From NCBI GenBank assembly GCA_947259395.1, contig CAMYMN010000006.1, positions 54,081 to 118,080 of the forward strand: a stretch of 64,000 nt of DNA, read 5' to 3'. Below, piece after piece: positions 32,813 to 55,881 of this stretch. The notes beneath the pieces were generated by a model, which saw nothing but the letters and a program-made list of their open reading frames with translations, was not told the origin of the DNA and did not search any database. Both the position numbers and the translations under genes were made by a program. Each line of letters opens with the position of its first letter. Within the stretch, counting starts at the first letter, position 1. This stretch comes from an uncultured Gammaproteobacteria bacterium (GTDB lineage Bacteria > Pseudomonadota > Gammaproteobacteria > Arenicellales > JAANXG01).

Positions 32813-32841
32813 ATCGCCCCATCGCGTCGCCATCATTCAGG

Positions 32842-38014: not shown

Positions 38015-38051
38015 AGATGATTGGACGAGGTGATTTTGAGGTGATAGCAAA

Positions 38052-38930: not shown

Positions 38931-39018
38931 AGCAACGAAGTTTGATTTATTGTGCGCGATATAATGAAATGAGTGCTGTGCGGTTAGTGACCGAACTTAT
39001 TGCTAGGCACGTTTGTCT

Positions 39019-39035
39019 TGGTATACGATATACCA
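39019..39035. promoter_or_regulatory. Candidate GntR operator upstream of tctC
   Basis: TGGTATA-CGA-TATACCA, perfect 7-base arms with a 3-base centre. The arms are identical to the site in front of gntR (42287-42303). It lies 118 bases before the tctC start. Confidence 0.75.
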
Positions 39036-39152
39036 TACGAAAGAAAAACGTTTCGTATTCCCCGCTGTTGCGGCCTGCGAAGGGCGCGGGGCACATATAA
39101 CCCGGATACGACATTGACTCGGGTTACCGACATCATCCTAAGGAGGAGAACA

Positions 39153-40130
39153 ATGAAAACACTGTGTAAAACAGCAGTCATGCCTGTTGTGGTAGCGGCG
39201 ATGGCTGCATTCGCTTTTTCGGGAGTCGCGTTAGCCGGCTGGGAGCCCAAGAAACCGGTTGATTTCGTCATTATGGCGGGGAAGGGCGGCGGTGCTGACA
39301 AGATGGCACGGTTGATGCAAAGCGTGATCGAAAAGCACAAGCTTGCTTCCAAGCCGTTTATTCCGATCAATAAACCCGGTGGTTCCGGCGCTGAGGCGCT
39401 GGTGCATCTGAAGCAGAAAGCCGGCGACGACCATACGATCATGGTCACGTTGAATAGCTTCTATACCACTCCGATGCGTCAGCCCGGTTTGGGGGTCGAC
39501 GTCATGACCTTCACACCGATCGGGCGCATGGCTGAGGATACGTTCTTGCTGTGGGTTCACAAAGACTCGGGCATCAAGAACGTCCAGGATTTTGTCAAGG
39601 CCGCCAAATCGGCCGGCAACAAATGGATTATGGCGGGCACCGGCAAGGGTCAAGAGGACCAGCTGCTTACCAATTTTCTCAACAAGGCCTATGGCCTGGA
39701 CATGAAATACGTACCGTTCAAGGGTGGCGGGCGCGTCGCGAAGGAACTGGCCGGGAAGCACGCCAATTCGACGGTCAACAATCCCTCGGAACAACTCGGT
39801 TTTTACGAAGCCGGGAATACGGTTCCGTTGGCGGCCTTTACCCCCGATCGATTACCGCTGTTCAAGGATGCACCGACCTTTCGCGAGTTGGGTAAGGATT
39901 TCGTATATTTCATGCAGCGCAGTGTGGTTGGTGCGCCGGGCATGAGTAAAGAGGCCGAAGACTACTACCGTGATGTTTTCAAGAAGGTATTCCAAACGGA
40001 GGAATGGCAAGGCTATATGAAGAAGAAGAGCCTGCAGGGTGAATTCTTGACCGGCGGTGACTTAAAGGCGTACTGGCAGCGAGAGAAAGACATTCACCAG
40101 AAGATGCTAAAGGATATCGGCGAGATCTAA
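39153..40130 (+). CDS. tctC: Tripartite tricarboxylate transporter substrate-binding protein
   Basis: 325 residues with a clear signal peptide (MPVVVAAMAAFAFSGVALA). The mature part has the TctC/Bug fold pattern: PVDFVIMAGKGGGADKMARL, NKPGGSGAEALVHLK, VKYVPF-like YVPFKGGGRVAKELAG, PLAAFTPDRLPLFKDAPTF. It binds an organic acid in the periplasm and delivers it to TctAB. AAGGAGG precedes the ATG at 39153; the longer frame lacks sense. Operon context suggests a C2 or C4 (di)carboxylate such as oxalate. Confidence 0.92.
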   Translation: MKTLCKTAVMPVVVAAMAAFAFSGVALAGWEPKKPVDFVIMAGKGGGADKMARLMQSVIEKHKLASKPFIPINKPGGSGAEALVHLKQKAGDDHTIMVTLNSFYTTPMRQPGLGVDVMTFTPIGRMAEDTFLLWVHKDSGIKNVQDFVKAAKSAGNKWIMAGTGKGQEDQLLTNFLNKAYGLDMKYVPFKGGGRVAKELAGKHANSTVNNPSEQLGFYEAGNTVPLAAFTPDRLPLFKDAPTFRELGKDFVYFMQRSVVGAPGMSKEAEDYYRDVFKKVFQTEEWQGYMKKKSLQGEFLTGGDLKAYWQREKDIHQKMLKDIGEI

Positions 40131-40170
40131 TCCCGAAGTTCTTGCTCGTCGATTAAGCAGGCCGAGCACC

Positions 40171-40668
40171 ATGCGTAAAGCCGAACTGGTGATGGCTGTG
40201 GTGATGGGATTGTTCTCGGCCTACTTGATGTGGAAAAGCGCGGAACTCCCCATCGGCTGGATACCCGAAGAGGGACCAGGCGGTGGGGCGTTTCCGTTTT
40301 GGTTGGCCGCCGGGATGCTGGTGTGTTGCATCTGGATCATTGTGCGCTGCTTGCGACGCACAAGCACGGTGGCGGTGTCCACCGACCAGTACATGGATGC
40401 TGCAACATTACGCATGTTTCTCCTGGTGGCGGGCTCGTTGACGGTGATGATTGGGTTGATCCACATAGTCGGGGTCTACGTCTCCACTCCCCTGTTCATG
40501 CTGTTCTACATGCGATACATGGGCGGTCATCACTGGTTGCCGACCGGCGTGATTGCCGTGGGCACGCCGGTCGTGGCATTTTTCTTCTTTGAGATTTCAT
40601 TGAAAATTACCCTCCCCAAAGGTTTCACCGAACCGCTTTTTTACCCCTTGTACGATATCTTTTTATAG
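40171..40668 (+). CDS. tctB: Tripartite tricarboxylate transporter small membrane subunit
   Basis: 165 residues with four hydrophobic helices, beginning LVMAVVMGLFSAYLMWKS, then the typical GPGGGAFPFWLAAGML (a TctB hallmark), a middle helix pair and a final YPLYDIF end. Partner of TctA. 40 bases after tctC. Confidence 0.9.
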   Translation: MRKAELVMAVVMGLFSAYLMWKSAELPIGWIPEEGPGGGAFPFWLAAGMLVCCIWIIVRCLRRTSTVAVSTDQYMDAATLRMFLLVAGSLTVMIGLIHIVGVYVSTPLFMLFYMRYMGGHHWLPTGVIAVGTPVVAFFFFEISLKITLPKGFTEPLFYPLYDIFL

Positions 40669-40677
40669 CGCCTCACC

Positions 40678-42189
40678 GTGGAAATACTCGATCACCTTAT
40701 CCAGGGATTCGCGATCGCATTCCAACCGCTCAACCTGGGTTTGGTAATTTTTGGTTGTGCTCTGGGCCTGTTTATCGGTGCCATGCCGGGTCTGGGTTCG
40801 GTAAACGGTGTGGCGATCCTGCTGCCGATGACATTTCTGGTCCCGCCTACCGGTGCGATCATTTTCTTGGCCGCGATCTACTATGGTGCCATGTACGGGG
40901 GCGCCATCAGCTCAATCATGCTTGGCATTCCCGGCGCCTCCACCGCGGTCGCAACCACGTTTGACGGCCGGCCGATGGCGATGCAGGGATTGGCCGACAA
41001 AGCACTGATTACTGCAGCGACGGCATCGTTTATCGGCGGCACGATTTCGGTGATTCTGTTTACCCTATTCGCGCCGCCATTGGCGGCAGTGGCCCTGGCA
41101 TTTGGCGCGGCGGAGGAATTCGCGCTGATGATGTTGGCCTTTGCCACGTTTATCGGTCTTGGTGGGGACGATATACCAAAGACCCTGTTCTCGATATTTA
41201 TCGGCTTGGTATTCAGTGCGGTGGGTCTCGATATCATCAGTGGCCAGCCGCGTTTGATCTTCGGGGACATTTCGGGATTCTTGCATGGCATCAATTTCCT
41301 GGTGTTGGCGATCGGCATTTATGGCATCGGCGAGATGTTGTGGACCATCGAGAGCAGTAAAGGAGATGTGCAAATTTCTCAAGCCACGGTGACGGTACGT
41401 CGGATCATCAACGATCTGCGCACCCTGAAAGACACCTTCAAGTCGATCGTTATGGGTTCTTTTCTTGGGTACTTTGTAGGTATTCTACCGGCGGCCGGTG
41501 CGACCCCAGGATCGCTGATGGCGTACGGCGTCGCCAAGACGATATCTAAAAATCCCGAATCCTTTGGTAAAGGCAATCCGGAAGGTGTCGCGGCACCCGA
41601 GTCTGCCAATAACGCGGCGAGTACCGGTTCCATGCTGCCGATGCTAACCTTGGGTATCCCGGGCTCTCCGACGACGGCCATCTTGTTGGGCGGCATGGTG
41701 ATCTGGGGACTCGAGCCAGGGCCCATGTTGTTTATCGAACACCAAGAATTCGTATGGGGCTTGATCGCCAGTCTGTACGCGGCCAATCTTTTTTCGCTAT
41801 TGATCAACGTCGCCTTTATTCCCGCTTTTATCTGGGTTCTGCGGCTGCCGTTTACCGTTCTGGCGCCGATCATCTTCGTGTTGTGCATTGTCGGCGGTTA
41901 TGCGCCCACTCAGGACATGCACGACGTATGGTTGATCCTGATTTTCGGTGTCGTTGGGTATCTGATGCGTAAGCTCGAGTACCCCTTGGCGCCGGCGGTA
42001 TTGGCGATCGTTCTAGGTCCGTTGGCGGAGACGTCAATGCGCCAGGCATTATTGATCTCTAACGGCAGCTTCATGATTTTTTTCGAGAGACCGATCTCCG
42101 GGCCGATCATGGCGGCGGCGATGGTGCTATTTCTGTTGCCGATATTTAAGCTGGTGAAAGACAAGTTTCGGTCGCGTGAGGCAACCTGA
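40678..42189 (+). CDS. tctA: Tripartite tricarboxylate transporter large permease
   Basis: 503 residues with about 12 helices, from GTG 40678. TctA landmarks: the GAMPGLGSVNGVAILLPMTF motif, YYGAMYGGAISSIMLGIPG, the second repeat GILPAAGATPGSLMAYG and PESANNAASTGSMLPMLTLG with GIPGSPTTAILLGG. Secondary-transport permease for an organic acid, driven by cation gradient. A GGCAAC/GTTGCC hairpin without T-run follows at 42196-42216. Confidence 0.93.
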   Translation: MEILDHLIQGFAIAFQPLNLGLVIFGCALGLFIGAMPGLGSVNGVAILLPMTFLVPPTGAIIFLAAIYYGAMYGGAISSIMLGIPGASTAVATTFDGRPMAMQGLADKALITAATASFIGGTISVILFTLFAPPLAAVALAFGAAEEFALMMLAFATFIGLGGDDIPKTLFSIFIGLVFSAVGLDIISGQPRLIFGDISGFLHGINFLVLAIGIYGIGEMLWTIESSKGDVQISQATVTVRRIINDLRTLKDTFKSIVMGSFLGYFVGILPAAGATPGSLMAYGVAKTISKNPESFGKGNPEGVAAPESANNAASTGSMLPMLTLGIPGSPTTAILLGGMVIWGLEPGPMLFIEHQEFVWGLIASLYAANLFSLLINVAFIPAFIWVLRLPFTVLAPIIFVLCIVGGYAPTQDMHDVWLILIFGVVGYLMRKLEYPLAPAVLAIVLGPLAETSMRQALLISNGSFMIFFERPISGPIMAAAMVLFLLPIFKLVKDKFRSREAT

Positions 42190-42286
42190 AGGGCAGGCAA
42201 CTGAACGGGGGTTGCCACGACCAAAAGGACTAATTCAGGGGAGCGGTTGAGGCGTGTGTTTTCAAGGGTTGTTGCGGCGAGACCAA

Positions 42287-42303
42287 TGGTATATTGTATA
42301 CCA
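42287..42303. promoter_or_regulatory. Candidate GntR operator upstream of gntR (autoregulation)
   Basis: TGGTATA-TTG-TATACCA, perfect 7-base arms and 3-base centre, 34 bases before the regulator ATG. The arms are identical to those of the site before tctC. Confidence 0.78.
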
Positions 42304-42337
42304 AATATGGAGCACAGACAGTGAGGACCCCCTGCAC

Positions 42338-43030
42338 ATGTCGAATCTCAAAATTCCCCTGCCGCCGGTGGATGTCCAGTTTGTCCTCAAGGACAAGGTC
42401 TATGAAGCGCTCAAAAAAGCGATTACTTCAATGGACATCTATTCCACAGCAGAACCGCCCAAGCTTGATGAACGCAAACTAGCGGAAGAGCTTGGCGTTA
42501 GTCGCACACCGGTCCGCGAAGCGATATCGCGTCTGGAGCAGGAGGGTCTCGTGCACACCATTCCACGCCGGGGCGCGTTCGTGTTGCGTAAATCCAAAAC
42601 AGAAATCCTGGAGATGATTTGCGTGTGGGCGGCCTTGGAAGGAATGGCGGCGCGCCTCGCTACAAAACATGCCACGGATAAGGAGTTGGCAAGTTTGCGG
42701 GAGTTATTCACGACGTTTGACCATTCTGATGCGACCGGGGCGCATATTGATGAGTATTCCGAGACCAATATCGAATTTCATCAGGCAATTATGAGGTTGA
42801 GCAAGTGCGAGTTGCTGATACAGATTGCGGAAGGTTTATTTATGCACATGCGATCGATACGCTCACAAACTATTAAAGAACGTAATCGTGCCTCCCAATC
42901 AATTATCGATCATATGCGTATGATCGAAGCTTTAGAGAACCGAAACACCGATTTAGCCGAGCAGTTGGTGCGTGAACATGCGTTGAATCTGGCAGAGCAC
43001 GTCAAGCAATACGCTGATTATCTGGAATGA
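42338..43030 (+). CDS. GntR-family transcriptional regulator (FadR/FCD type)
   Basis: 230 residues. N-terminal winged helix with KLAEELGVSRTPVREAISRL and GLVHTIPRRGAFV; C-terminal all-helical FCD ligand domain with metal/ligand residues typical of the family (Asp/His in EYSETNIEFHQAIM, IDHMRMIEAL). FCD regulators usually bind small carboxylates. The frame is open to 42254 across the operator, but ATG 42338 is the sensible start. Probable master regulator of the island, with matching operators before fdhB, tctC and itself. Confidence 0.92.
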   Translation: MSNLKIPLPPVDVQFVLKDKVYEALKKAITSMDIYSTAEPPKLDERKLAEELGVSRTPVREAISRLEQEGLVHTIPRRGAFVLRKSKTEILEMICVWAALEGMAARLATKHATDKELASLRELFTTFDHSDATGAHIDEYSETNIEFHQAIMRLSKCELLIQIAEGLFMHMRSIRSQTIKERNRASQSIIDHMRMIEALENRNTDLAEQLVREHALNLAEHVKQYADYLE

Positions 43031-43091: not shown

Positions 43092-44843
43092 ATGTCGACA
43101 CGAGCAAGAGACTTAAACGTTTCAGATACCGCTACCGACACCCTTGCCAAGAAGAGTCAGGCCGGTGATGTGATATCCGGCGGCCATCTGGTTGCCAAGG
43201 CGCTAAAAAACGAAGGCATCGATACCATATTCACACTTTGTGGCGGCCACATTATCGATATCTATGATGGTTGTGTCGATGAGGACATCCGCATTATCGA
43301 TGTGCGCCACGAGCAAACCGCGGCGCACGCCGCGGATGGCTACGCGCGGCAGACTGGAAGGCTCGGCTGTGTCGTGACCACCGCCGGTCCGGGTTGCACC
43401 AATGCCATCACCGGCATTGCCACCGCATTCCGATCGGAAAGCCCAGTGCTGCACATTGGTGGCCAAGGCGCGCTCACTCAACACAAGATGGGTTCACTAC
43501 AGGACCTGCCTCATGTAGACATCCTTTCGCCGATTACCAAGTTTGCAGCGAGCGTACGCTCCACTGAGCGTGTGGCGGATATGATTTCGATGGCGGCGCG
43601 TGAGTGTTTTGCCGGTGCGCCCGGGCCCTCGTATCTGGAAATCCCGCGGGACATACTCGACCGCGAAGTCGAGCTGGAGAAAGCGACGATCCCCAAGGCC
43701 GGTTCCTATCGCGCGTCTGCCAGATCTATCGGCGATCCGACCAATGTCGAAACCTTGGCGGAACTGCTCGTCAAATCCGAGCGACCCGCAATTCTGTTGG
43801 GCTCCCAGGTTTGGGCCAGCCGCGGTCACCAACAGGCGATCGACCTGGTACGCGCGCTGAACATCCCCGCCTACTTCAACGGCGCAGGTCGCGGCATCCT
43901 TCCTCCCGGTGATCCCCATCACTTTCACCGCACGCGGCGGGATGCGTTCAATAAAGCGGATGTGATTATCATCGTTGGTACCCCCTTTGATTTCCGCATG
44001 GGCTACGGCAAGCGGCTGCGGGCCGATGCCACGGTGGTACAGATCGATCTCGATTACCGAACTGTGGGTAAAAACCGCGACGTATCCTTGGGTCTGGTCG
44101 GTGATCCGGGGGCGATCCTGAAAGCGGTGCATGATGCTACGACAGCAGCGAGTGAGAATGGCGCGGCAAAACGCGCAGGCTGGCTCGAGGAACTCCGTGT
44201 TCTGGAGGCGCAGAAAACGGATAAATTAATGCCGCTGTTTAGATCGGATAACGATCCGATTCACCCCTACCGGGTCGCCTGGGAACTCAACGAATTCCTC
44301 ACCGAAGACACGATCTACATCGGTGACGGCGGGGATGTAGTGACGATAAGCGCCCAGGCGGTACAACCCCGGGCACCGGGAAACTGGATGGACCCCGGGG
44401 CATTGGGATCGCTCGGTGTCGGAACTGGGTTTGCAATGGCCTCGAAGCTCGTACACCCAAACAAAGAAGTGCTGTGCTACTACGGTGATGGGTCGTTCGG
44501 GATGACCGCATTTGACATGGAGACCGCCAACCGCTTCGGCGCCCCGTACATCGCAGTGATTGGCAACAACTCGGCCATGAATCAGATCCGTTATGGACAG
44601 ATTACTAAGTACGGAACAGAACGCGGCGATGTCGGTAATCTTCTCGGTGACGTCCCATTTTCAAAATTTGCCGAGATGCTCGGCGGTTATGGGGAAGAAG
44701 TCAAACAACCCGATGACATTGCCCCGGCGTTGCAGCGCGCGCGTGAGGCGGTACAAGGCACTGGGAAATCCGCGGTGATCAATATCTGGGTTGATCCTAA
44801 TGAATACGCGCCGGGTACCAAGGCACAGACCATGTATAAGTAA
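43092..44843 (+). CDS. ThDP-dependent decarboxylase/lyase, candidate oxalyl-CoA decarboxylase
   Basis: 583 residues of the acetolactate synthase/oxalyl-CoA decarboxylase/2-hydroxyacyl-CoA lyase superfamily. Catalytic Glu 74 (RHEQTAAHAADGYAR) and the ThDP motif from GDG (about 465) to NN (about 492) are intact. It lies 15 bases before a canonical formyl-CoA transferase, so oxalyl-CoA to formyl-CoA plus CO2 is the natural role. But where E. coli-type Oxc has a Tyr-Glu pair it has Leu-Gln (MGSLQDLPHVD, about 133-143), closer to 2-hydroxyacyl-CoA lyases (GAFQE) and acetolactate synthases. The C-terminus EYAPGTKAQTMYK also differs. A 2-hydroxyacyl-CoA lyase is the main alternative. Good ribosome site (CAGGAG). 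Confidence 0.75.
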   Translation: MSTRARDLNVSDTATDTLAKKSQAGDVISGGHLVAKALKNEGIDTIFTLCGGHIIDIYDGCVDEDIRIIDVRHEQTAAHAADGYARQTGRLGCVVTTAGPGCTNAITGIATAFRSESPVLHIGGQGALTQHKMGSLQDLPHVDILSPITKFAASVRSTERVADMISMAARECFAGAPGPSYLEIPRDILDREVELEKATIPKAGSYRASARSIGDPTNVETLAELLVKSERPAILLGSQVWASRGHQQAIDLVRALNIPAYFNGAGRGILPPGDPHHFHRTRRDAFNKADVIIIVGTPFDFRMGYGKRLRADATVVQIDLDYRTVGKNRDVSLGLVGDPGAILKAVHDATTAASENGAAKRAGWLEELRVLEAQKTDKLMPLFRSDNDPIHPYRVAWELNEFLTEDTIYIGDGGDVVTISAQAVQPRAPGNWMDPGALGSLGVGTGFAMASKLVHPNKEVLCYYGDGSFGMTAFDMETANRFGAPYIAVIGNNSAMNQIRYGQITKYGTERGDVGNLLGDVPFSKFAEMLGGYGEEVKQPDDIAPALQRAREAVQGTGKSAVINIWVDPNEYAPGTKAQTMYK

Positions 44844-44858
44844 CTTGAGGAGTCAATC

Positions 44859-46136
44859 GTGGAAAAAGCACTCTCTGGAATCCGGATACTGGATATGACC
44901 CATGTGCAGGCCGGCCCCACCTGCAGCCAACTCATGGCTTTTCTCGGTGCCGATGTCATCAAGCTCGAACCTCCGACCGGAGATGTCACGCGTAAGCAAT
45001 TACAAGATGTGCCCGATGCGGACAGTTTGTATTTCACGATGCTCAACTGCAACAAGCGCTCGATTACGGTTAACCTCAAAAACCCGATGGGTAAAGAGGT
45101 GTTCAGCGATTTGCTCAAGTCGTGTGATGTGGTGATGGAAAACTTCGGCCCTGGTGTGCTGGGTCGCCTTGGGTTTAGCTGGGAGCACGTGCACGAGCTC
45201 AATCCCAAGATCGTCATGGCGTCGATAAAGGGGTTCGGCAACGAGGGTCCGTACGCGAGTTTCAAGGCCTACGAGAATGTTGCGCAGGCGATGGGTGGAT
45301 CAATGGGCACTACCGGGGCGTTCGATGGTCCGCCGATGGCGACCGGCGCGCAGATCGGTGATTCGGGCACCGGTGTCCACCTGATGGCAGGGATCCTGGC
45401 GGCACTGATTCAGCGGGAGCGTACGGGCCAAGGTCAGTTCGTGGAATGCGCGATGATGGATTGCGTGATGAATCTGTGCCGGGTGAAGTTCCGCGATCAT
45501 CAACGCATCGAACGTGGCCCGATGCAGGAGTACTCGATCCAGGAATTCGAAGACTTCACACCGCGTGCCGGTAATGATTCTGGCGGTGGACAACTCGGAA
45601 ATGCGGTGCAGTGCAAACCTGGTGGCCCAAATGACTATTTGTACGTGGTCGTGCAGGAACATGTATGGAAGGATCTCGCCAAACGTGTCGGTGGTGATGG
45701 GCTTGCCCAGGATCCCCGTTTTATCGACATCAAGGTACGGCGTAAAAATCAAACCGATATGTGGCGCATCCTCGGAGAATTCGCGAGTAATCATAGCAAA
45801 TGGGAGCTGATGGAGATCCTCAACCAAATCAATGTGCCGTGCGGTCCGATCATGAGTACCAAGGACCTGACACATGACACCCACGTTGCGCTGCGTGAAA
45901 TGGTGGTCACGGTGCCGCACCCGGAGCGCGGAGATTTCCAAAATGTTGGATGCCCGATAAAGCTTTCGGATTCACCGGTGGAGGTGGAGCGGTCACCTTT
46001 GCTCGGCGAGCATACAAACATCATTCTGCGGGAAATTCTCGGTTATGACAGCGAACATATCGAGCACTTGCACGATTCAGGTGCCTTTACCAGGGAGCCG
46101 CCCAAGATCGAGGAATACCATGAATTACGTGCTTAA
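44859..46136 (+). CDS. frc: Formyl-CoA:oxalate CoA-transferase
   Basis: 425 residues, class III CoA transferase. Transfers CoA from formyl-CoA to oxalate, giving oxalyl-CoA and formate. It is very close to E. coli Frc (YfdW) over long stretches: THVQAGPTCSQLMAFLGADV with Gln 17, DVTRKQLQDVPDADSLYFTM, IKGFGNEGPY, KAYENVAQA, the catalytic Asp 168 in GAQIGDSGTGVH, and a glycine loop NDSGGGQLGN that gates the active site. This is the strongest marker of oxalate use in the CoA-dependent branch. GTG start with GAGGAG upstream; likely co-transcribed with the ThDP gene. Confidence 0.93.
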   Translation: MEKALSGIRILDMTHVQAGPTCSQLMAFLGADVIKLEPPTGDVTRKQLQDVPDADSLYFTMLNCNKRSITVNLKNPMGKEVFSDLLKSCDVVMENFGPGVLGRLGFSWEHVHELNPKIVMASIKGFGNEGPYASFKAYENVAQAMGGSMGTTGAFDGPPMATGAQIGDSGTGVHLMAGILAALIQRERTGQGQFVECAMMDCVMNLCRVKFRDHQRIERGPMQEYSIQEFEDFTPRAGNDSGGGQLGNAVQCKPGGPNDYLYVVVQEHVWKDLAKRVGGDGLAQDPRFIDIKVRRKNQTDMWRILGEFASNHSKWELMEILNQINVPCGPIMSTKDLTHDTHVALREMVVTVPHPERGDFQNVGCPIKLSDSPVEVERSPLLGEHTNIILREILGYDSEHIEHLHDSGAFTREPPKIEEYHELRA

Positions 46137-46220: not shown

Positions 46221-48353
46221 ATGACATACCGTCGCGAAGCCGTTAGTGCGGTGTTGGAGCAGGTTAAGAAGGAGGGACGTGATGCGCTTACCGCCCCGGA
46301 ATGTAAGCAGGTTTGCGATGCTTATGACGTACCGTTGCCTGAGGAGGGCGTGGCGAATTCGCCGGAGGAGGCGGTAACGATTGCCGAGAAGATTGGTTTT
46401 CCAGTGGTCATGAAGATTGTGGCACCGGACATACTGCACAAGACCGAGGCCGGTGGGGTGCTGGTGGGCATTGCCAATGCGGACCAGGTAAGGTCTGGCT
46501 ACGAGACGATTATCAATAACGCACGTGCGCATAGGTCAGACGCCTTGGTCACCGGCGTCCAGATCCAAAAGATGTTGACCGGCGAAGCCCAAGAGGTGAT
46601 CGTCGGCGCGGTGACCGATCAGAGCTTCGGTAAATTGGTCGCGTTCGGTCTTGGCGGGATCCTGGTGGAAGTCCTCAAGGATGTCAGCTTCCGTTTAGCG
46701 CCGACTTCACAGCAAGATGCGCGGTCGATGCTCGATAGCATCCAGGCGGCGGAGGTTTTAAAAGGCGTTCGCGGCGCGCAGCCGGCCGATCGTGAGGCGC
46801 TGGTCTCGATCATTGTGAATGTCTCTAATCTGGTGAACGATTTTCCCCAGATCCAAGAAGTGGATTTGAATCCGATCATGGCGCGGGCAGATGGTGCGAC
46901 GGCTGTGGATGCATTGATATCAGTCAATTTCGATCCACCGGAAGAGCTGTATCGGCCGAGCCGGGAAGAAATTGTCGCGGCCATGAACCCGATTATGAAT
47001 CCAAAGTCGGTAGCGGTGATCGGTGCTTCGGACGGCGAAGGGAAGATCGGTAACTCGGTGATGAAGAATCTCATCAACGGCGGTTACCCGGGCGAGATTT
47101 ACCCCATCAATCCAAAGGCCGATGAGATCCTGGGCAAGAAGGCATACAAAAGTGTTCTCGACATTCCTGGGGACGTGGACCTAGCGGTGTTTGCGGTGCC
47201 GGCAAAATTCTGTGCGTCAGCGATGGAAGAGGTCGGTCAAAAACGTATTCCCGGGGCGGTGATGATTCCGTCCGGTTTTGCCGAGGTTGGCGAGAAAGGG
47301 CTGCAAGATGAATTGTTGGCCGTCGCGCGCAAGCACAACGTGCGCATCATGGGCCCAAATATATATGGGTTTTATTACACACCCGCCAATCTGTGCGCAA
47401 CATTCTGCACACCCTACGACGTTAGGGGTAAGGTCGCGTTGTCTTCGCAAAGCGGTGGTGTCGGTATGTCGATTATTGGATTCAGCCGGTCCACCAAGAT
47501 GGGTGTATCGGCCATTGTCGGGCTGGGCAACAAGTCTGACCTGGACGAAGACGATCTGCTGACTTACTTCGAGCAAGATGACAACACGGAAGTAATGGCG
47601 ATGCACGCAGAAGATCTGAAAGATGGCCGCAGCTTTGCCGAAGTCGCCAAACGTGTGTCAAAGGAAAAACCGGTGGTGATGCTCAAAGCCGGCCGCACGC
47701 AACTGGGTGCGCGCGCTGCCGCGTCGCATACCGGCGCGCTGGCGGGTAACGACAAGATCTATGACGACGTGCTGCGCCAAAGTGGTGTAATCCGCGCCAA
47801 GAGCCTGAATGACCTGCTGCAGTTCGCGCGCGGCCTGCCGATATTACCTACCCCCAAAGGCGAGGATATCGTGATCATCACCGGCGCCGGCGGTTCTGGT
47901 GTGTTGTTATCGGACGCGTGCGTCGACAACGATTTGTCTTTGATGAAGTTTCCCGAAGATCTGGATGAGGCGTTTAAGCAATTTATTCCGCCGTTCGGTG
48001 CGTCTGGTAACCCGGTCGATATCACCGGCGGTGAGCCACCGATCACGTATGAAAACACAATACGACTTGGTTTGGAGGACGACCGGATTCACGCGCTTAT
48101 CCTGGGCTATTGGCATACGATTATCACGCCACCTATGGTATTTGCGGAGTTGACGGCCCGGGTGGTTGAAGAAGCACGTGGTAAGGGAATTCATAAACCC
48201 ATTGTCGCTTCCTTGGTGGGCGATGTGGAAGTCGAGCAGGCTTCGGAGTATTTGTACGAACGGGGCGTAGTGACCTACCCGTATACGACAGAGCTGCCGG
48301 TGGCGGTGTTGGGCGCGAAGTACCAGTGGGCAAGGGCGGCAGGGTTACTCTGA
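46221..48353 (+). CDS. ADP-forming acyl-CoA synthetase (fused beta-alpha)
   Basis: 710 residues. ATP-grasp (beta) domain first (about 1-235: FPVVMKIVAPDILHKTEAGG, EVIVGAVTDQSFGKLVAFG, EVDLNPIMA), then the CoA-binding/ligase alpha part (PKSVAVIGASDGEGKIGNSV, GPNIYGFYYTP, SSQSGGVGMSI) with the phospho-His in AASHTGALAGNDK. Reversibly couples acyl-CoA formation to ATP/ADP. In this island it could prime the cycle by making oxalyl-CoA or formyl-CoA, or run in reverse to gain ATP. AAAGGAGAG precedes the ATG. Confidence 0.87.
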   Translation: MTYRREAVSAVLEQVKKEGRDALTAPECKQVCDAYDVPLPEEGVANSPEEAVTIAEKIGFPVVMKIVAPDILHKTEAGGVLVGIANADQVRSGYETIINNARAHRSDALVTGVQIQKMLTGEAQEVIVGAVTDQSFGKLVAFGLGGILVEVLKDVSFRLAPTSQQDARSMLDSIQAAEVLKGVRGAQPADREALVSIIVNVSNLVNDFPQIQEVDLNPIMARADGATAVDALISVNFDPPEELYRPSREEIVAAMNPIMNPKSVAVIGASDGEGKIGNSVMKNLINGGYPGEIYPINPKADEILGKKAYKSVLDIPGDVDLAVFAVPAKFCASAMEEVGQKRIPGAVMIPSGFAEVGEKGLQDELLAVARKHNVRIMGPNIYGFYYTPANLCATFCTPYDVRGKVALSSQSGGVGMSIIGFSRSTKMGVSAIVGLGNKSDLDEDDLLTYFEQDDNTEVMAMHAEDLKDGRSFAEVAKRVSKEKPVVMLKAGRTQLGARAAASHTGALAGNDKIYDDVLRQSGVIRAKSLNDLLQFARGLPILPTPKGEDIVIITGAGGSGVLLSDACVDNDLSLMKFPEDLDEAFKQFIPPFGASGNPVDITGGEPPITYENTIRLGLEDDRIHALILGYWHTIITPPMVFAELTARVVEEARGKGIHKPIVASLVGDVEVEQASEYLYERGVVTYPYTTELPVAVLGAKYQWARAAGLL

Positions 48354-48403: not shown

Positions 48404-49273
48404 ATGACGATAAAGACGATTTTGGTCCCCTTGGACGGCAGTAAGGCAAGCACTGACGCACTGAACACCGCATTCGTGGTGGCAGACCGGTTTGGAGCTC
48501 ATATCGACGCCTTGCATGTATTGCCCAAGCCCACCGACGTAGCGCCGTTTATGTTTGATCGCTTGTCGGCCAAGATGAAAGACACCTTCGAGGCGGAGAT
48601 CGTGGAAGACGCCCAGGAAAAGGCGGCGGCGATACGGACGGATTTTGAGGAGCTCTGTGAACACCACAACGTGTCAATCACGGATAAGCCCACCGTTAAA
48701 ACGGGTGTTACCGCTGCCTGGCGGGAGGCAGTTGGCCGCGCCAGTGAGGTGTTGGTACACCAAGCGCGCCTAGCGGACATGATCATAGTCGCCAGGCCGC
48801 GGCCGAGCCGGTCTCGGATTCGGCTGTCGCCGGCGGGTGACACACTACAGGCAGTGATGCTTGATTCCGGTCGCCCGATCATGTTGGTGCCGCCGAAGTG
48901 GAAGGCAAAACTGATTGACCACGCAGCGATCGGTTGGAATGACAGCCTGGAAGCATCGCGTGCACTGGCCATGATGATGTCGTGTCTACCGTTAATGAAG
49001 ACGGTTACGGTGGTGACGTCGAAAAAGCGAAAAGCGAGTGCATCGATGCTTGGTGAGTATCTCGCGTGGCACGGGATTGATGCCCAAATTGAGTGGCTGC
49101 AAAAGAAAGATATATCGGTTGAAGAGGCCATACTCAAAGCGTGCTCGAAAGTGGGGGCCGAATTATTGGTTGTGGGTGGGTTTAGCCACACCCGTGCCCG
49201 GGAGATGTTATTCGGTGGTGTTACTCGTTATCTGCTTGCTAACTCTAAGATAGTAACCGTGATGGTTCATTAA
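48404..49273 (+). CDS. Universal stress protein, two tandem UspA domains
   Basis: 289 residues. First domain begins KTILVPLDGSKASTDALNTA; the second has GWNDSLEASRALAMM and ends with the ATP-loop-like VVGGFSHTRAREMLFGGVTRYLLA. Such proteins bind ATP or act in stress; here it may be a regulator or accessory of the pathway. 50 bases after the CoA ligase gene, same strand. Confidence 0.88.
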   Translation: MTIKTILVPLDGSKASTDALNTAFVVADRFGAHIDALHVLPKPTDVAPFMFDRLSAKMKDTFEAEIVEDAQEKAAAIRTDFEELCEHHNVSITDKPTVKTGVTAAWREAVGRASEVLVHQARLADMIIVARPRPSRSRIRLSPAGDTLQAVMLDSGRPIMLVPPKWKAKLIDHAAIGWNDSLEASRALAMMMSCLPLMKTVTVVTSKKRKASASMLGEYLAWHGIDAQIEWLQKKDISVEEAILKACSKVGAELLVVGGFSHTRAREMLFGGVTRYLLANSKIVTVMVH

Positions 49274-49386
49274 GCGTATTGAAATAAGTGCATTCGGTTG
49301 ATGGGTACGTCGTTACTTGCGGTGTGAATTTTGACAGATCTTATTGAGGTTGTTTGTGGACTAGATCAGTTTTGACAGAGGTAAAC

Positions 49387-50274
49387 GTGACGATTCTCAG
49401 GAGTCTTCTTTTCATACCCGGGAACAAGTCCAATATGCTGGACAAGGCGATGGGATTCGACCCGGATGTGTATGTGCCCGACATGGAGGACTCGGTACCG
49501 GAATCAGAAAAGAAAAACGCCCGCAAGGTCATTGCATCGCACCTCAGAAAATTGAAAGCAGTTGGTCCACTGGTAATTCCGCGTGTCAATTCGTTGCAGT
49601 CAGGCTGGATAGAAGAAGATCTTTTGTCGGTGGTGGGACCGTTTATTGATGGTATCTCGATCGGTAAGATTCGAACTGCACAAGACATTCATGAAATCTC
49701 CGATCTGATCACAGAGCTGGAATCGAAGCAGCAGATGGCGGCAGGGGGGGTCAGATTGATTCCGTGGATCGAGACTGCGCAGGCCGTCGTGCACTGCCAT
49801 GAAATCTGTACCGCCAGCCCGCGTATCGTCGCAGTAGCCTTTGGCGCGGAAGATTTCACCCATGATATGGGTATTGAACGTTTGGGAGACGAGTCGGAGT
49901 CGGAACTGGCGTTCGCACGGAATACTTTGTGTATTACCGCGCGGGCTGCCGCTATTCTCGCGCTAGATACGCCTTATTTCAGGTTCAAAGACGAAGCAGG
50001 CCTAAAGCGAAATGTAGCCGCGGCGAAACGCTGTGGCTTCAAAGGCAAGTTCGCCATCCATCCGGCACAGGTCGCACCCATCAATCGGGCATTCTCACCA
50101 ACGAAGGCAGACGTCGAATACGCACGGCGCGTGGTGGCAGCGTTCGAAGAGGCCGAGCGTTCAGGCAGGGGCTCGACATCATTGGAGGGAAACGTCATTG
50201 ATGTCCCGGTGGCAAAGCGCGCCCGAGCGGTCCTCGAACTTGCCGGAACCATGTCGAAATCTAATGCGGGTTAG
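49387..50274 (+). CDS. CitE-like acyl-CoA lyase (malyl-/citramalyl-CoA lyase family)
   Basis: 295 residues of the HpcH/HpaI-CitE family: RSLLFIPGNKSNMLDKAMGF, VPDMEDSVPESEK, substrate Arg in VIPRVNS, Mg ligands Glu in IPWIETAQA and Asp in FGAEDFTHD, and KFAIHPAQVAPINRAFSP near the end. The family cleaves or forms C-C bonds in malyl-CoA, citramalyl-CoA or related thioesters. With the SucCD/MtkAB-like pair it could interconvert malate, acetyl-CoA and glyoxylate. GTG 49387 has AGAGG upstream; TTG 49354 is less likely. Confidence 0.85.
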   Translation: MTILRSLLFIPGNKSNMLDKAMGFDPDVYVPDMEDSVPESEKKNARKVIASHLRKLKAVGPLVIPRVNSLQSGWIEEDLLSVVGPFIDGISIGKIRTAQDIHEISDLITELESKQQMAAGGVRLIPWIETAQAVVHCHEICTASPRIVAVAFGAEDFTHDMGIERLGDESESELAFARNTLCITARAAAILALDTPYFRFKDEAGLKRNVAAAKRCGFKGKFAIHPAQVAPINRAFSPTKADVEYARRVVAAFEEAERSGRGSTSLEGNVIDVPVAKRARAVLELAGTMSKSNAG

Positions 50275-50435: not shown

Positions 50436-50744
50436 ATGACAACCATCGTAACTGACAATTGTAAACGCTGCCGTTTTACCGATTGTGTCACGGTATGCCC
50501 GGTTGCCTGTTTTCACGGCGATGATGAGATGCTCTATATCGACAATGAAGTATGTATCGATTGCGGTGCCTGCATCCCGTTGTGCCCAGTCGAGGCGATC
50601 TACGAAGATCCCATCCCAGAGGACAAAGAACAGTGGATTGAAATCAACGAGGAACGCGCGCCCGGTTTGCCGGTAATTCGCGACAAGCAAGATCCCTACC
50701 CGGGTGCGGAGGAGCGGAAGGAAGAACTGGGTTTTGCGGATTAG
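50436..50744 (+). CDS. 7Fe ferredoxin (FdxA-like)
   Basis: 102 residues. Cys pattern DNCKRCRFTDCVTVCPVACF and CIDCGACIPLCPVEAI corresponds to one [3Fe-4S] and one [4Fe-4S] cluster, with the acidic C-terminal tail of FdxA/Azotobacter FdI. It is 53 bases before the FprA-type reductase and upstream of the oxidoreductase genes, so it is the likely electron carrier between them. Good AGGA ribosome site. Confidence 0.92.
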   Translation: MTTIVTDNCKRCRFTDCVTVCPVACFHGDDEMLYIDNEVCIDCGACIPLCPVEAIYEDPIPEDKEQWIEINEERAPGLPVIRDKQDPYPGAEERKEELGFAD

Positions 50745-50797: not shown

Positions 50798-52180
50798 ATG
50801 AGCAACCTTGGCACAGAACAAAATCCGCTATGCGCCGCGATTGTCGGTAGCGGGCCCAGTGGTTTCTATGCCACCGAAGCCTTGCTCAGGGCAGAACCCA
50901 TGGTCCTGGTAGATATGTACGAACGTCTTCCCTCGCCGTTCGGTCTGGTCCGCAGTGGTGTCGCACCGGATCATCCCAAACTCAAGCAAGCCATCAGTGT
51001 TTATGAACAGATCGCCGAGTCCCCCGAGTTCCGGTTTATGGGTAACGTTACGGTCGGACGTGACGTCAGCGTCGCCGAGTTGAAGGAGTGCTACCATGTG
51101 ATCGTGTTTACGTGCGGCGCGGAGACGGATCGGCAACTCGGGGTCCCCGGGGAGCATCTGGCCGGTAGCCACACCGCCACGGAGTTTGTCGGTTGGTACA
51201 ACGGTCATCCTGATTACCGTGACCTCACGTTCGACTTGTCTCATGAAACCGCGGTGGTCATCGGGCAGGGAAATGTCGCGATCGATGTGTGTCGGCTCCT
51301 TGCTAAGACGGTAGACGAACTCAAACATTCGGACATCGCGCAGCATGCCCTCGAGGTGTTGGCAAACAGCAGGGTTCGTGACATTTACATGATCGGCCGC
51401 CGGGGTGCCGCGCAAGCCAAATTCACCCATCAGGAGTTACGGGAACTCGGCGAACTAGCGGACTGCGAACCGGTCGTTGATCCTGACGACCTAGAATTGA
51501 ATCCAGCGAGTCGCGAAGAACTCGCCGACCGGCGTAACCGGGCCAATATCAAGAGCTACGAAGTGTTACAACAATTTGCTTCTCGACCGCCACCGACGCG
51601 GGGTCGACGCTGCCATCTTCACTTTCTCAAGAGCCCGGTAGAGTTTAAAGGCGGGGGAAGCCTTGAACGAGTGGTGTTAGTGAAAAATCGACTGGAAGGG
51701 GAACCGTCGCATCAGGTCGCATGTCCAACCGACGAGATGGAAGAGCTTGCATGCGGTGTGCTTTTTCGCAGTATCGGTTACCGGGGTGTTGCCATGCCGG
51801 GTGTACCTTTCGACGATCGTCGCGGCGTCTTTCCCAACCAGGATGGACGCATCGTAGATGGCAGTGGCGTAGTTCCCGGTATGTATGTTGCCGGCTGGAT
51901 CAAGCGTGGACCGACCGGGATCATCGGCACCAATCGGGCCGATAGTGTAGCCACGGTTCAATCATTGCTGGACGACTTACCAAAGCTGGACGCCAACAAG
52001 AAACCGGGTGCTGAACGACTGGAGCCGTTGTTGGCCGGCCGCGGTGTGCGTGTGGTGAGCTATGCGGATTGGCAGAAGATTGATGCTGCAGAAGTGCGAA
52101 GCGGTGAGGCGAGGGGTAAACCGCGGGAGAAGTTCACGCGGGTCGCGGAGATGTTGGCGGTACTTCCGGAGGCTGTCTAA
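50798..52180 (+). CDS. Ferredoxin-NADP reductase, FprA/adrenodoxin-reductase type
   Basis: 460 residues. FAD motif IVGSGPSGFYATEAL, then the hallmark LPSPFGLVRSGVAPDHPKLK (split: LPSPFGLVRSGVAPDH), NADPH-binding VIGQGNVAIDVCRLLAK, and MYVAGWIKRGPTGIIGTNR with NRADSVATV. It resembles M. tuberculosis FprA. It would transfer electrons from reduced ferredoxin to NADP+ (or the reverse). Position between the ferredoxin and the 2-oxoacid oxidoreductase suggests NADPH is a product of oxalate oxidation. Confidence 0.93.
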   Translation: MSNLGTEQNPLCAAIVGSGPSGFYATEALLRAEPMVLVDMYERLPSPFGLVRSGVAPDHPKLKQAISVYEQIAESPEFRFMGNVTVGRDVSVAELKECYHVIVFTCGAETDRQLGVPGEHLAGSHTATEFVGWYNGHPDYRDLTFDLSHETAVVIGQGNVAIDVCRLLAKTVDELKHSDIAQHALEVLANSRVRDIYMIGRRGAAQAKFTHQELRELGELADCEPVVDPDDLELNPASREELADRRNRANIKSYEVLQQFASRPPPTRGRRCHLHFLKSPVEFKGGGSLERVVLVKNRLEGEPSHQVACPTDEMEELACGVLFRSIGYRGVAMPGVPFDDRRGVFPNQDGRIVDGSGVVPGMYVAGWIKRGPTGIIGTNRADSVATVQSLLDDLPKLDANKKPGAERLEPLLAGRGVRVVSYADWQKIDAAEVRSGEARGKPREKFTRVAEMLAVLPEAV

Positions 52181-52485
52181 AGTGGCGCGAAACGAATCTT
52201 TGACTCGCCATCTCGCCTGGTGCCGGAAACATTATCGGAACAGGAAATATTGCAGTGCAATACGAAACGCAGTGTTTGATGTTGTTGTGTCGAGGGGTTA
52301 AGGACTGCGCTAATGGATAGGACGCGATTGGAAATGGACCGTATATACGGATCAAGCGATGTCCTAACCGTTGACGGGCGCGATGCCCCGTTCCGACGCG
52401 ACGCGAAGCGAAGTGGGCGAAACATATTCCGAGTTGTTATTCTGGGCTGTGCAGTGTTGCGGCCCGAACCACAGGAGTCATGCAT
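52181..52485. promoter_or_regulatory. Intergenic region before the oxidoreductase genes, with two palindromes
   Basis: 305 bases without a supported gene. It contains TATTGCA-G-TGCAATA (52248-52262) and CCGTATATACGG (52339-52350), both perfect. Neither matches the GntR arms exactly. Their place suggests a separately controlled promoter for the three oxidoreductase genes. The CAGGAG ribosome site at 52470-52475 sets the start at ATG 52486. Confidence 0.5.
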
Positions 52486-53616
52486 ATGAGCACCAGTTCT
52501 GTAGAGGTCGTATACCGTGGTATTTTCCAAAAGACGTTGGCGAAGAATGTCTGCCGCGGGATAGTTTTTGCTGCAAAAAAAGATGGGAGGATAGGTATCG
52601 CCTTCGGGCGTTACAGCGATTCGCCTGAGCGTAATGGCATCCCCGCCAAGCAGTTCGCTGTGGTGGCGGATACCGAGGAAGAGTTGGAGGAGCACCTCTC
52701 GAGGTACGAGCCCGATAATAACGATGTCACCATATGTGCCGACGACACCCTGTGCAAGGGTGTCGAGTCCTGGGCTTGGTACGGTCTGCAGCCGATCAAT
52801 AAGTTGCTGAAGCCAGACGGCACATTGTTGGTCACGTCGATGCGACCGGCGGACAGTTTAATCAGAGACATCCATCGCAAGGCGGTGCCCTATAATCTGG
52901 CCACTGTCAAAGGCACAGCCAGCTTTTCGGGGCTGTGGGTGTACAAGGACGATCACACCGATGTTCGGCTACTGGGGGCGCTGGCGAAAGTTGCGCCACA
53001 TGTTGTGAGCCTGGATGCCATCATTGAGGGCATCGGCGATTCCATGAAGCAGGCTTCCGTCAGGAAGGCCTACGACATGGTGGAGCCAGTACCGGTGGCG
53101 GTGGATCAGGGCAACGACGAGGTGCCCTATGAGTTTGATTTGCCGGGCTACACTACGATGGAAGAGTGCCTGGTGATTCGCGGCATGGACAAGCAGCAAG
53201 ACGTTCCCGGGCGCGACGGTGGCTATGTGCCGGCGCGCAATCCCACCTTTAAGAAGTACGCAACGCGCACCATGCGTCCGGTGATCAACTTCGAGACCTG
53301 CACCAAGTGCACCATCTGTTGGCTGCAATGTCCCGACACCTGCTTTGATGTCACCCCGGATGATTACTACGACGCCAACATGGAGGCTTGTTGTGGCTGT
53401 GGTGTGTGCGAGGCGGTGTGTCCGGTGGACCAGTGTATCACTATGATCAACGAGGAAGCGTTCACCGATAACGCCAGCCAATGGGAAATGTGGAGCAAGG
53501 ATAAGGAAAGCTATTCCAAGTGGTTGTCTGAAAAAATTTCTGAACAACCCGCCCGCTCCCACGGGTTTCATCACATAGGCCAATACGCCGAGGAGATCGC
53601 TCATGAATCCACCTAA
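52486..53616 (+). CDS. Oxalate oxidoreductase, fused gamma-delta subunit
   Basis: 376 residues. The first about 190 form the gamma domain of 2-oxoacid:ferredoxin oxidoreductases (VVYRGIFQKTLAKNVCRGIV, SMRPADSLIRDI, SLDAIIEG). The C-terminal part is the delta-type domain with two [4Fe-4S] motifs, CTKCTICWLQCPDTC and CCGCGVCEAVCPVDQC. A fused gamma-delta preceding alpha and beta is the gene order of the Moorella oxalate oxidoreductase. ATG 52486 is favoured over 52480 by ribosome-site spacing. It overlaps the alpha gene by 14 bases. Confidence 0.87.
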   Translation: MSTSSVEVVYRGIFQKTLAKNVCRGIVFAAKKDGRIGIAFGRYSDSPERNGIPAKQFAVVADTEEELEEHLSRYEPDNNDVTICADDTLCKGVESWAWYGLQPINKLLKPDGTLLVTSMRPADSLIRDIHRKAVPYNLATVKGTASFSGLWVYKDDHTDVRLLGALAKVAPHVVSLDAIIEGIGDSMKQASVRKAYDMVEPVPVAVDQGNDEVPYEFDLPGYTTMEECLVIRGMDKQQDVPGRDGGYVPARNPTFKKYATRTMRPVINFETCTKCTICWLQCPDTCFDVTPDDYYDANMEACCGCGVCEAVCPVDQCITMINEEAFTDNASQWEMWSKDKESYSKWLSEKISEQPARSHGFHHIGQYAEEIAHEST

Positions 53617-54859
53617 ATCAGCCACTGCGAAAAAAGTAGATGTCCAGGCTGCACGCGCGCCGCGTAGTGAATCGGAGGAGCTTATTAGCGGCAGCGAAGC
53701 GATCTCCCATGCAGTCAAACTTGCCGATGTCGATGTGATCACCGCCTATCCGATACGTCCCTACGATACGGTGATGCAGTATGTATCGCAGATGATAGCC
53801 AACGGAGAGTTCGACTGCGAGTACATCGTCGCCGAGAGCGAGCACTCGCAGTTTGAGATTGTCAAACACGCGTCGGCGGTCGGGGCCCGAGTATTTTGCG
53901 GTTCCAGCGGTGTCGGCTGGTTGTATGCCTTCGAGGCGTTGGCGGTCACCGCCGGGCTGCGCCTGCCGATGGTGGCGATGGTCGGCAACCGGGCGCTCGA
54001 CGATCCGGGTGCATTCGGCGTTGAGCACAACGATGCGCTGTCGGTACGAGACTTGGGCTGGATGCTCGCCTGGGTGGCGACCGCACAAGAGGCGTTGGAC
54101 ACTGCGCTGATCGCCTATCGTGTGGCCGAAGATTCGCGCGTCTTCCTGCCATGCGCAATCAGCTGTGACGGCGCCTTTCTCACGCACTCCCAGTCGATTG
54201 TCAAAGTGCCTAGCCAACAGATGGTCGACAATTTCCTGCCGCCCTACGATCGCGGCGACAAGCAATTGCATCCAGACAATCCAATCACCGTCGCCCCGCA
54301 GGCGAATGAGGATTGGGTAATGGAAATCCGCCGGCAGAATGACATGGCGGCGCGGCGTGCGCGAGAGGTGATCATCGAAGCCTACGACGACTTTAACAAT
54401 CAGTTCGGACGCGGCGGCGAGCCCTTCATCGAGCGCTATATGATGGAAGACGCCGAAGTTGCCTTGGTGGGAATGGGAACCCTGGCGATGCCGGTAAAAG
54501 TTGCCGTGCGCAAGATGCGGCAGGAGGGAAAGAAGGTCGGCTTCCTCCGCGTGAGGTGGTTTCGGCCGTTTCCCACCATCGAGTTGCAGGGGGCGCTGTC
54601 TGGCGTGCACGCAGTGGGCGTCATCGACCGTGATTACAGCTTCGGTTCCACCTTTCACAGCGGCGCACTGGCCAACGAATTGCGCTCTGCCCTCTATCCT
54701 TTGGCAAACCGGCCTAAAGTCGTTTCATTCATTGCCGGCTTGGGTGGACGCGAAGTGAGCACCGACAATGTCATCGATATAACCGGTAGAGTGTTCGCGG
54801 CCGCGAACGGTGGCGAAATTGATGATCAAGACACCTACTGGATCGGAGTGAGGGAGTAA
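53603..54859 (+). CDS. Oxalate oxidoreductase, alpha subunit
   Basis: 418 residues, ThDP-fold PYR-type domain I plus domain II. Pyruvate-type enzymes have YPITP; this has YPIRP with Arg 52. The substrate/switch loop reads NRALDDPGAFG with Arg 130, Asp 133 and Phe 138. These positions equal Arg31, Arg109, Asp112 and Phe117 of Moorella oxalate oxidoreductase (numbering as I recall it) with a constant offset of 21, reflecting a longer N-terminus here. The arginines neutralise the dicarboxylate. I therefore assign oxalate to CO2 oxidation, not pyruvate. Function is inferred from signature residues and neighbours. Confidence 0.87.
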   Translation: MNPPKSATAKKVDVQAARAPRSESEELISGSEAISHAVKLADVDVITAYPIRPYDTVMQYVSQMIANGEFDCEYIVAESEHSQFEIVKHASAVGARVFCGSSGVGWLYAFEALAVTAGLRLPMVAMVGNRALDDPGAFGVEHNDALSVRDLGWMLAWVATAQEALDTALIAYRVAEDSRVFLPCAISCDGAFLTHSQSIVKVPSQQMVDNFLPPYDRGDKQLHPDNPITVAPQANEDWVMEIRRQNDMAARRAREVIIEAYDDFNNQFGRGGEPFIERYMMEDAEVALVGMGTLAMPVKVAVRKMRQEGKKVGFLRVRWFRPFPTIELQGALSGVHAVGVIDRDYSFGSTFHSGALANELRSALYPLANRPKVVSFIAGLGGREVSTDNVIDITGRVFAAANGGEIDDQDTYWIGVRE

Positions 54860-54864
54860 CGATC

Positions 54865-55881
54865 ATGCAACAGATAAACATACACGCACTAAGCGACTAT
54901 CTCGAAACCCAGGTTCTTGAACCTTGGAAGGGTATTAAAAAAGTTGCGCACGACGAGTATTTCACATCGGGTCACCGCACCTGTCAGGGTTGTGAGTCGG
55001 CCTTAGTCATGCGTCTCATGATCAAGGCGGCGGGACCGCGTACGATTGTCCTCGGCGCCACGGGTTGTATGTATGTGGCCAACACCACGTATTATTCAAC
55101 TCCGTGGGTGGTGCCGTGGATGCACACGCAGCTTGGGTCCTCGGGATCTGCCGCCACCGGTACTGCAGCCGCTCTAACGGCGTTGATGCGCAAGGGCAAG
55201 ATGGAGAAAGAACCGATCAACGTGATTGCCTTTTGCGGCGATGGTGGCGGTGCCGACATGGGATTATCGGCCATTTCGGCGGCGCTCCAACACACGCAGT
55301 ACAACCTGTTGATCTTCCTGTATGACAACGAGTCCTACGCCAACACTGACATCCAGGTGTCTGGCTTATCGCCGTACGGTGCCAACTCTACGTTCAGCCC
55401 CCCGGGTAAGGTGCATCGGATCATGCACAAGCGGTGGAAAAAGAACACCGCCGCGATGCTGGCCGCGGGCCATCCCGACTGTAAATACGTCGCGACGGTC
55501 TCTGCCGGAAACGCGGTCGATACGATTAACAAAGTGCGCCGGGCATTGACCATCGGCGGCCCGACGTTCATCCATTCGCTCGATCCTTGCCCAAAAGGCT
55601 GGGACTACGATCCGAAGTATTCCCATGACCTCGGCGAACTCGCAGTAGAGACTGGTATTTGGCCGCTCTACGAGGTTGAAGAAGGCAAGCTCAAGATGTA
55701 TGGGAAGAGCAAGCATATTGCGAAACGCAGGGTGGAGCGTAAACCGGTCAGCGAGTACTTGCTGAGACAGGGACGTTTCGCGCATTTTACCAAAGAAGAT
55801 CTCGATTACTTTCAGGGAAAGATTGACGAGATGTGGGAGAAGTGGCTGCTTCCCGGGGTAATTCCGTTTACCGGGGAATAG
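54865..55881 (+). CDS. Oxalate oxidoreductase, beta subunit
   Basis: 338 residues; binds ThDP and the proximal [4Fe-4S] cluster. Candidate cluster ligands are Cys 40 and 43 (GHRTCQGCES), Cys 68 (GATGCMY) and Cys 242 (DPCPKGW). The ThDP motif is CGDGGGADMGLSA followed by LYDNESYANTDIQVSG. In pyruvate enzymes the corresponding text is closer to NTGGQ, so the pocket differs. The stop of alpha is five bases upstream. Together with the gamma-delta and alpha subunits it completes the enzyme, whose electrons would go to ferredoxin. Confidence 0.87.
   Translation: MQQINIHALSDYLETQVLEPWKGIKKVAHDEYFTSGHRTCQGCESALVMRLMIKAAGPRTIVLGATGCMYVANTTYYSTPWVVPWMHTQLGSSGSAATGTAAALTALMRKGKMEKEPINVIAFCGDGGGADMGLSAISAALQHTQYNLLIFLYDNESYANTDIQVSGLSPYGANSTFSPPGKVHRIMHKRWKKNTAAMLAAGHPDCKYVATVSAGNAVDTINKVRRALTIGGPTFIHSLDPCPKGWDYDPKYSHDLGELAVETGIWPLYEVEEGKLKMYGKSKHIAKRRVERKPVSEYLLRQGRFAHFTKEDLDYFQGKIDEMWEKWLLPGVIPFTGE

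Follow-up and report, generated by a model that had tools for sequence, protein, structure and literature searches.

The window (the whole stretch of 64,000 nucleotides of gammaproteobacterial DNA that was analysed) encodes a distinct-clade member of the oxalate oxidoreductase (OOR) family, most likely an oxalate:ferredoxin oxidoreductase coupled to NADPH. At a probability of about 0.7, this OOR-family 2-oxoacid:ferredoxin oxidoreductase would convert oxalate to two CO2 and pass the electrons via FdxA and FprA to NADP+, and is encoded by an optional cassette; the analysis establishes homology, tree position, residues, cassette and oxidase genes, and we infer its substrate, its electron path and its function in the presence of oxygen.

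Subunits and relationship to Moorella OOR

Three intact plus-strand open reading frames, spanning window positions 52480-55881, encode the subunits:

52480..53616, plus strand: oorGD, fused gamma-delta subunit (378 aa; the delta chain of 5c4i is the top PDB match)
53603..54859, plus strand: oorA, alpha subunit (418 aa; POR_N and PFOR_II; motifs YPIRPY and NRALDDPGAFG)
54865..55881, plus strand: oorB, beta subunit (338 aa; predicted TPP and [4Fe-4S] binding)

The oorGD start is at 52480, position 52486 being codon 3 and likewise an ATG. Moorella thermoacetica OOR (PDB 5c4i, 5exd, 5exe; EC 1.2.7.10) is likewise composed of fused gamma-delta, alpha and beta subunits, and the open reading frames bear out the Moorella order claimed in the sequence-only reading. 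In relatives (all of the best 80 have alpha) the subunit genes also adjoin each other, except at loci cut by contig ends. The gamma-delta subunit carries two [4Fe-4S] cysteine motifs (C274, C277, C280, C284 and C304, C307, C310, C314), all eight residues of which are common to Moorella OOR and invariant (8/8) in the 31 sequences aligned.

For each subunit the top PDB sequence match is Moorella OOR 5c4i, at 335.7 bits for alpha (next, a PFOR at 233), 301.7 for beta (next 208.5) and 86.7 for gamma-delta (next 49.4), with identities to the Moorella enzyme of 43, 49 and 27%, respectively. The alpha and gamma-delta folds also resemble those of Moorella OOR, with Z scores of 38.8 for alpha to 5c4i versus 37.0 to Methanosarcina PFOR, and of 24.7 for gamma-delta to 5exe versus 19.9 to the next family, both from predicted models of middling quality (pLDDT 75 and 76). 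The AlphaFold alpha model is poorest in the key loop at residues 131-143 (pLDDT <50), a point that counts against the oxalate assignment. The NCBIfam OOR models NF045790, NF045791 and NF045792 are the top-scoring family for every subunit, despite scores that all lie under the equivalog cut-offs (delta 102 versus 230 bits, alpha 391 versus 500, beta 348 versus 590).

The alpha phylogeny (IQ-TREE; 85 sequences, namely 44 window-type, Moorella, one Acidobacterial copy and 39 POR) splits the OOR group from the 39 POR sequences with support of 100/100 and unites the window-type sequences in one clade (100/100), the sister of which is Moorella plus the Acidobacterial copy. In the beta tree the OOR group stands apart from 37 POR rows (94/89) and the window-type clade again receives 100/100; POR sampling in the trees was mostly Pseudomonadota plus Methanosarcina 9bt4. 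The tree that had been proposed as a check therefore groups alpha with Moorella OOR and not among the pyruvate enzymes.

The four-subunit PFOR PorABCD (PDB 9bt4) belongs to the same superfamily and shares its TPP and [4Fe-4S] chemistry, but has YPI[T/S]P where window alpha has YPIRP, carries an NRAIGAPINIW-type loop, and occupies different branches in both trees. An ordinary 2-oxoacid:ferredoxin oxidoreductase for pyruvate or branched-chain substrates, located near frc by accident, is a highly improbable reading: the common superfamily and an alpha score of 358 bits against archaeal PorA, compared with 391 against the OOR model, would suit such an enzyme, but both trees and the R31 motif contradict it, and the window's own genome has separate PorA paralogues with YPITPQ. 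Identity as a PFOR was ruled out by the alpha and beta trees and the YPIRP motif.

Active-site residues and two OOR types

PMC5020499 gives Arg31 and Asp116 as residues of the bait-and-switch step of OOR and describes Arg31, not found in pyruvate enzymes, as suited to a second carboxylate; PMC12654022 lists Arg31, Asp116, Asn143-beta and Glu154-gamma. In the alignment, window alpha R52, R130, D133 and F138 correspond to Moorella R31, R109, D112 and F117 at an offset of 21 throughout, just as the sequence-only reading had it, and the replacement of YPITP by YPIRP is confirmed (R52 equals Moorella R31). All four residues are invariant in 81/81 aligned members (Moorella numbering), as is beta N143 wherever it is aligned (n = 77; Moorella numbering); YPIRPY, these alpha and beta residues and the eight gamma-delta cysteines are common to the window enzyme and Moorella OOR. 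Arginine at the YPI[T/S]P position is restricted to the OOR group, POR paralogues having Thr or Ser.

The two enzymes differ at Moorella D116, which is Ala in 81/81 members (window A137), and P113, which is Asp in 81/81 (window D134). Moorella gamma-delta Glu154 aligns, next to a gap, to window Asp157 (Asp in 28/31, Glu in 3/31). The earlier account of the active site was thus right in its four residues, all of which are kept, but cited Asp112 and overlooked Asp116, the switch residue of the literature. Because Asp116 is lacking, the window protein is assigned to a separate clade, sister to Moorella OOR, and is not classed as a Moorella-type OOR; that Asp113 stands in for Asp116 in this clade is a guess. 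The original identification as OOR stands as far as homology to OOR over PFOR is concerned (PDB matches, trees and folds), and is qualified by the separate clade, the scores below the NCBIfam OOR cut-offs and the missing Asp116.

Among sequences from 199 Acidobacteriota, the OOR-type loop takes exactly two forms, NRALDDPGAFG, which is that of the window's clade, and DRTLDPPGDFG, which is found in Moorella and three Acidobacteria; there are therefore two OOR types. One Acidobacterial contig (L109) carries both types 5 kb apart, its Moorella-type alpha lying above the curated OOR cut-off (578 versus 500). The presence of both in one Acidobacterium could mean divided functions, a point against the oxalate assignment of the window's clade.

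The cassette and neighbouring oxalate genes

In the window, oor is preceded by the following genes:

30902..35636, plus strand: NAD-type formate dehydrogenase, NuoE/F-like and catalytic subunits (assigned by sequence)
39000..42189, plus strand: tctC-tctB-tctA tripartite tricarboxylate-type transporter, possible oxalate importer
42254..43030, plus strand: GntR/FCD-type regulator (assigned by sequence and conserved position)
43092..44843, plus strand: TPP enzyme of the 2-hydroxyacyl-CoA lyase/oxalyl-CoA decarboxylase family, presumed oxalyl-CoA decarboxylase partner of frc
44859..46136, plus strand: frc, formyl-CoA:oxalate CoA-transferase (TIGR03253)
46221..48353, plus strand: ADP-forming acyl-CoA synthetase
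48404..49273, plus strand: universal stress protein
49354..50274, plus strand: HpcH/CitE-type lyase
50436..50744, plus strand: fdxA-type ferredoxin (FdxA_Protbact 108 bits, under the cut-off of 135; assigned also by cassette membership)
50798..52180, plus strand: fprA/adrenodoxin-reductase-type NADPH-ferredoxin reductase (PDB 1lqt FprA, 394 bits)

The neighbouring frc had been called canonical, with which its TIGR03253 score (576 bits versus a cut-off of 504) agrees, and its GDSGTG motif places D168 at the position of the family's Asp169. The TPP enzyme scores 235 bits against the oxalyl-CoA decarboxylase model NF006721 (cut-off 557), which assigns it at the HACL/OXC family level only, and no canonical oxc above cut-off was found in the six genomes examined; the window's TPP enzyme may be a decarboxylase of oxalyl-CoA or else a 2-hydroxyacyl-CoA lyase. 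The formate dehydrogenase would oxidise formate arising from the frc route, and homologues lie near OOR at two other loci (L049 and L056). Among the best 80 relatives, tctC is near OOR in 17/80 and tctA in 16/80. The island resembles the CoA-dependent oxalate pathway found in aerobic oxalotrophs (frc-oxc and the oxalyl-CoA reductase route) in its frc, OXC-family enzyme and formate dehydrogenase. Unlike that pathway, the predicted OOR would oxidise free oxalate without CoA, conserving both electrons as ferredoxin/NADPH; unlike the Moorella enzyme, it lies within an oxalyl-CoA pathway island and has its own FdxA and FprA.

G001 and G004, both genomes from the window's genus, have the order tctCBA-gntR-oxc-frc-acs-usp-citE followed directly by a flanking gene that corresponds to window positions 55974-58709 (54% identity in L149). 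Between citE and this flanking gene, the window and G002 have exactly fdxA-fprA-oorGD-oorA-oorB, the five-gene unit being missing from G001 and G004 with synteny kept on both sides; G005 agrees with the pattern, but is split over contigs. The pair fdxA-fprA precedes oor in L040 and L043 and follows it in L052 and L053; in other proteobacterial families both genes flank oor, upstream or downstream. Since the five genes are present or absent as one, a path from OOR via ferredoxin and FprA to NADPH is suggested, with direction and partners inferred; FdxA is the probable electron acceptor of OOR. Contamination or a chimeric assembly was rejected, two further MAGs of the genus having the same genes and G002 the same order and flanks. 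The attribution to a gammaproteobacterium-like genome agrees with contigs that same-genus genomes have in common with GenBank 'uncultured Gammaproteobacteria' MAGs; a search of the window's own genome found no 16S gene.

In the mechanism proposed, oxalate would be held by alpha Arg52 (the OOR-specific arginine), alpha Arg130 and beta Asn160, and the TPP of alpha/beta would add to the bound oxalate, which would yield two CO2 without CoA. The two electrons would exit through the beta and gamma-delta [4Fe-4S] clusters to the co-encoded FdxA, from which FprA would hand them to NADP+. Within the genus, OOR is an optional module, the cassette being placed beside a CoA-dependent oxalate pathway comprising Tct uptake, frc, the OXC-like enzyme and formate dehydrogenase.

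Oxalate-specific neighbours (frc, oxalate/formate antiporter or oxalyl-CoA synthetase) were detected at 18/62 OOR loci versus 0/20 POR loci (Fisher p 0.004, an optimistic value since kinship is uncorrected). Acidobacteriota oor loci contain a GntR regulator, an oxalate/formate antiporter (480.7 bits versus a cut-off of 335), an AMP ligase (422 bits to oxalyl-CoA synthetase versus 254 for the top ligase of another kind), a PanE-family reductase, an aminotransferase and PPDK, and so share oxalyl-CoA synthetase and PanE-family reductase with the aerobic oxalotroph pathway; a PanE-family oxalyl-CoA reductase is known in Methylobacterium. As lineages differ in their oxalate genes, shared descent alone is an inadequate explanation. 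Chance placement beside frc was ruled out by the clean presence or absence of the five genes together with the different oxalate genes of other lineages.

At 24 Chloroflexota loci an FMN 2-hydroxyacid dehydrogenase is found in place of frc or the antiporter, and oxalate-specific neighbours are lacking at the majority of Chloroflexota loci, which counts against oxalate as substrate. It is conceivable, though unlikely, that this OOR-like enzyme really acts on a different small 2-oxoacid close to oxalate in metabolism, for instance glyoxylate or mesoxalate, the two arginines holding a carboxylate and D116A/P113D marking the change of substrate. The invariant, strictly bimodal loop changes, the retention of both OOR types in one genome and the Chloroflexota dehydrogenase would fit such a change, but Arg31, suited to a second carboxylate according to PMC5020499, is retained, and neighbours specific to oxalate itself occur in two independent lineages.

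Distribution in respiring hosts

Scanning GTDB genomes yielded 260 relatives; the description here covers the 80 best, which leaves the more distant members aside. These 80 comprise uncultured Gamma-, Alpha- and Betaproteobacteria at 80-96% identity and, at 66-74%, Chloroflexota including SAR202, Acidobacteriota, Rokubacteria, Armatimonadota, Myxococcota and Bipolaricaulota. Among 299 evenly drawn Pseudomonadota, the window's own genome was the sole carrier of an OOR-type alpha (by score), and the clade is therefore rare in that phylum; a plasmid search found no OOR-type match (<=36% identity among the best matches listed).

The window host has 3 heme-copper oxidase family genes, in keeping with the oxygen-respiring organism first envisaged, and such genes are present in 4/4 gammaproteobacterial OOR genomes and 25/26 other OOR hosts examined. 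The terminal oxidases contrast with the acetogen setting of Moorella OOR. They show a host able to respire, function of OOR under oxygen being a prediction. A possible but doubtful alternative retains oxalate as substrate but supposes other conditions, oxidation taking place only when oxygen is absent or scarce (with nitrate, for example) and the oxygen-respiring host being incidental. OFORs are commonly oxygen-sensitive and the window host has others, which is in line with anoxic use; the oxidase genes in 25/26 hosts speak against it, though they do not imply simultaneous use.

The statement that OOR is known from a strict anaerobe matches the literature consulted, which ascribes OOR to Moorella or to anaerobic bacteria, but undersells the range: members of the clade are widespread in bacteria that carry oxidases, and Moorella-type OOR with Asp116 occurs in Acidobacteriota too. 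A survey of oxalate degradation omitted OOR, citing lack of information, and no description of the window's OOR clade was found in the open-licence literature searched; its wide occurrence in respiring bacteria has apparently gone undescribed so far.

It may tentatively be proposed that the clade constitutes a second, mechanistically distinct aerobic class of OOR that dispenses with the Asp116 switch, perhaps using Asp113, feeds NADPH via FdxA/FprA in Proteobacteria under oxygen, and ends a glycolate route in SAR202. In these Chloroflexota, the clade may end the sequence glycolate to glyoxylate to oxalate to CO2 together with the adjacent FMN 2-hydroxyacid dehydrogenase. The natural D116A/P113D swap offers a direct test of the bait-and-switch model. 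Oxalate is a large carbon pool from plants, fungi and the sea, and surveys confined to frc/oxc overlook the OOR clade; if its members are real OORs, aerobic soil and marine bacteria of several phyla would have a CoA-free means of turning oxalate into reducing power.

Gene content around the oxalate genes

The island that carries the oxalate oxidoreductase (OOR) genes and the formyl-CoA:oxalate CoA-transferase gene frc also holds the following features, with one further gene flanking the fdxA-fprA-oorGD-oorA-oorB cassette.

36767-38930, malate/succinate-CoA ligase-like pair
43092-44843, TPP enzyme, adjoining frc
49354-50274, CitE-like lyase
55974-58709, reverse strand, coiled-coil-rich protein of 911 aa, flanking the cassette

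The best relatives of the TPP enzyme are 2-hydroxyacyl-CoA lyases (7pt3, 261 bits), true oxalyl-CoA decarboxylases being distant relatives only. A canonical oxalyl-CoA decarboxylase was found in none of the six related genomes examined for it, all of which contain frc. The ligase-like pair and the CitE-like lyase suggest that glyoxylate or malyl-CoA may connect with the oxalate genes. The position of the coiled-coil-rich protein is kept in congeners while its sequence evolves fast (54% and about 41% identity). Elsewhere in the window (30300-30570), a short-period repeat encoding low-complexity LVLVLV/AQAPAQAP stretches in ORFs on both strands lies close to the start of a metallo-beta-lactamase-fold-like gene.

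Related oxidoreductases in the same genome

In the genome to which the window belongs, the gamma domain of 2-oxoacid oxidoreductases (POR, PF01558) was matched six times (contigs C29, C70, C71, C32, and C42), once within a NifJ-length frame (1194 aa); the window's own gamma-delta is not one of these six.

OOR loci in Acidobacteria and Chloroflexota

Both OOR types, that of the window's clade and the Moorella type, occur on a single Acidobacterial contig, L109 (9977-11224 and 14917-16176), spaced ∼5 kb apart, in a cluster that also has oxalyl-CoA synthetase, a PanE-family reductase, and an oxalate/formate antiporter. At 24 Chloroflexota loci (within L058-L113), an FMN-dependent 2-hydroxyacid dehydrogenase is encoded directly downstream of oor, for example:

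L074, 6122-7264, FMN-dependent 2-hydroxyacid dehydrogenase

A route from glycolate via oxalate to CO2 is possible at these loci.
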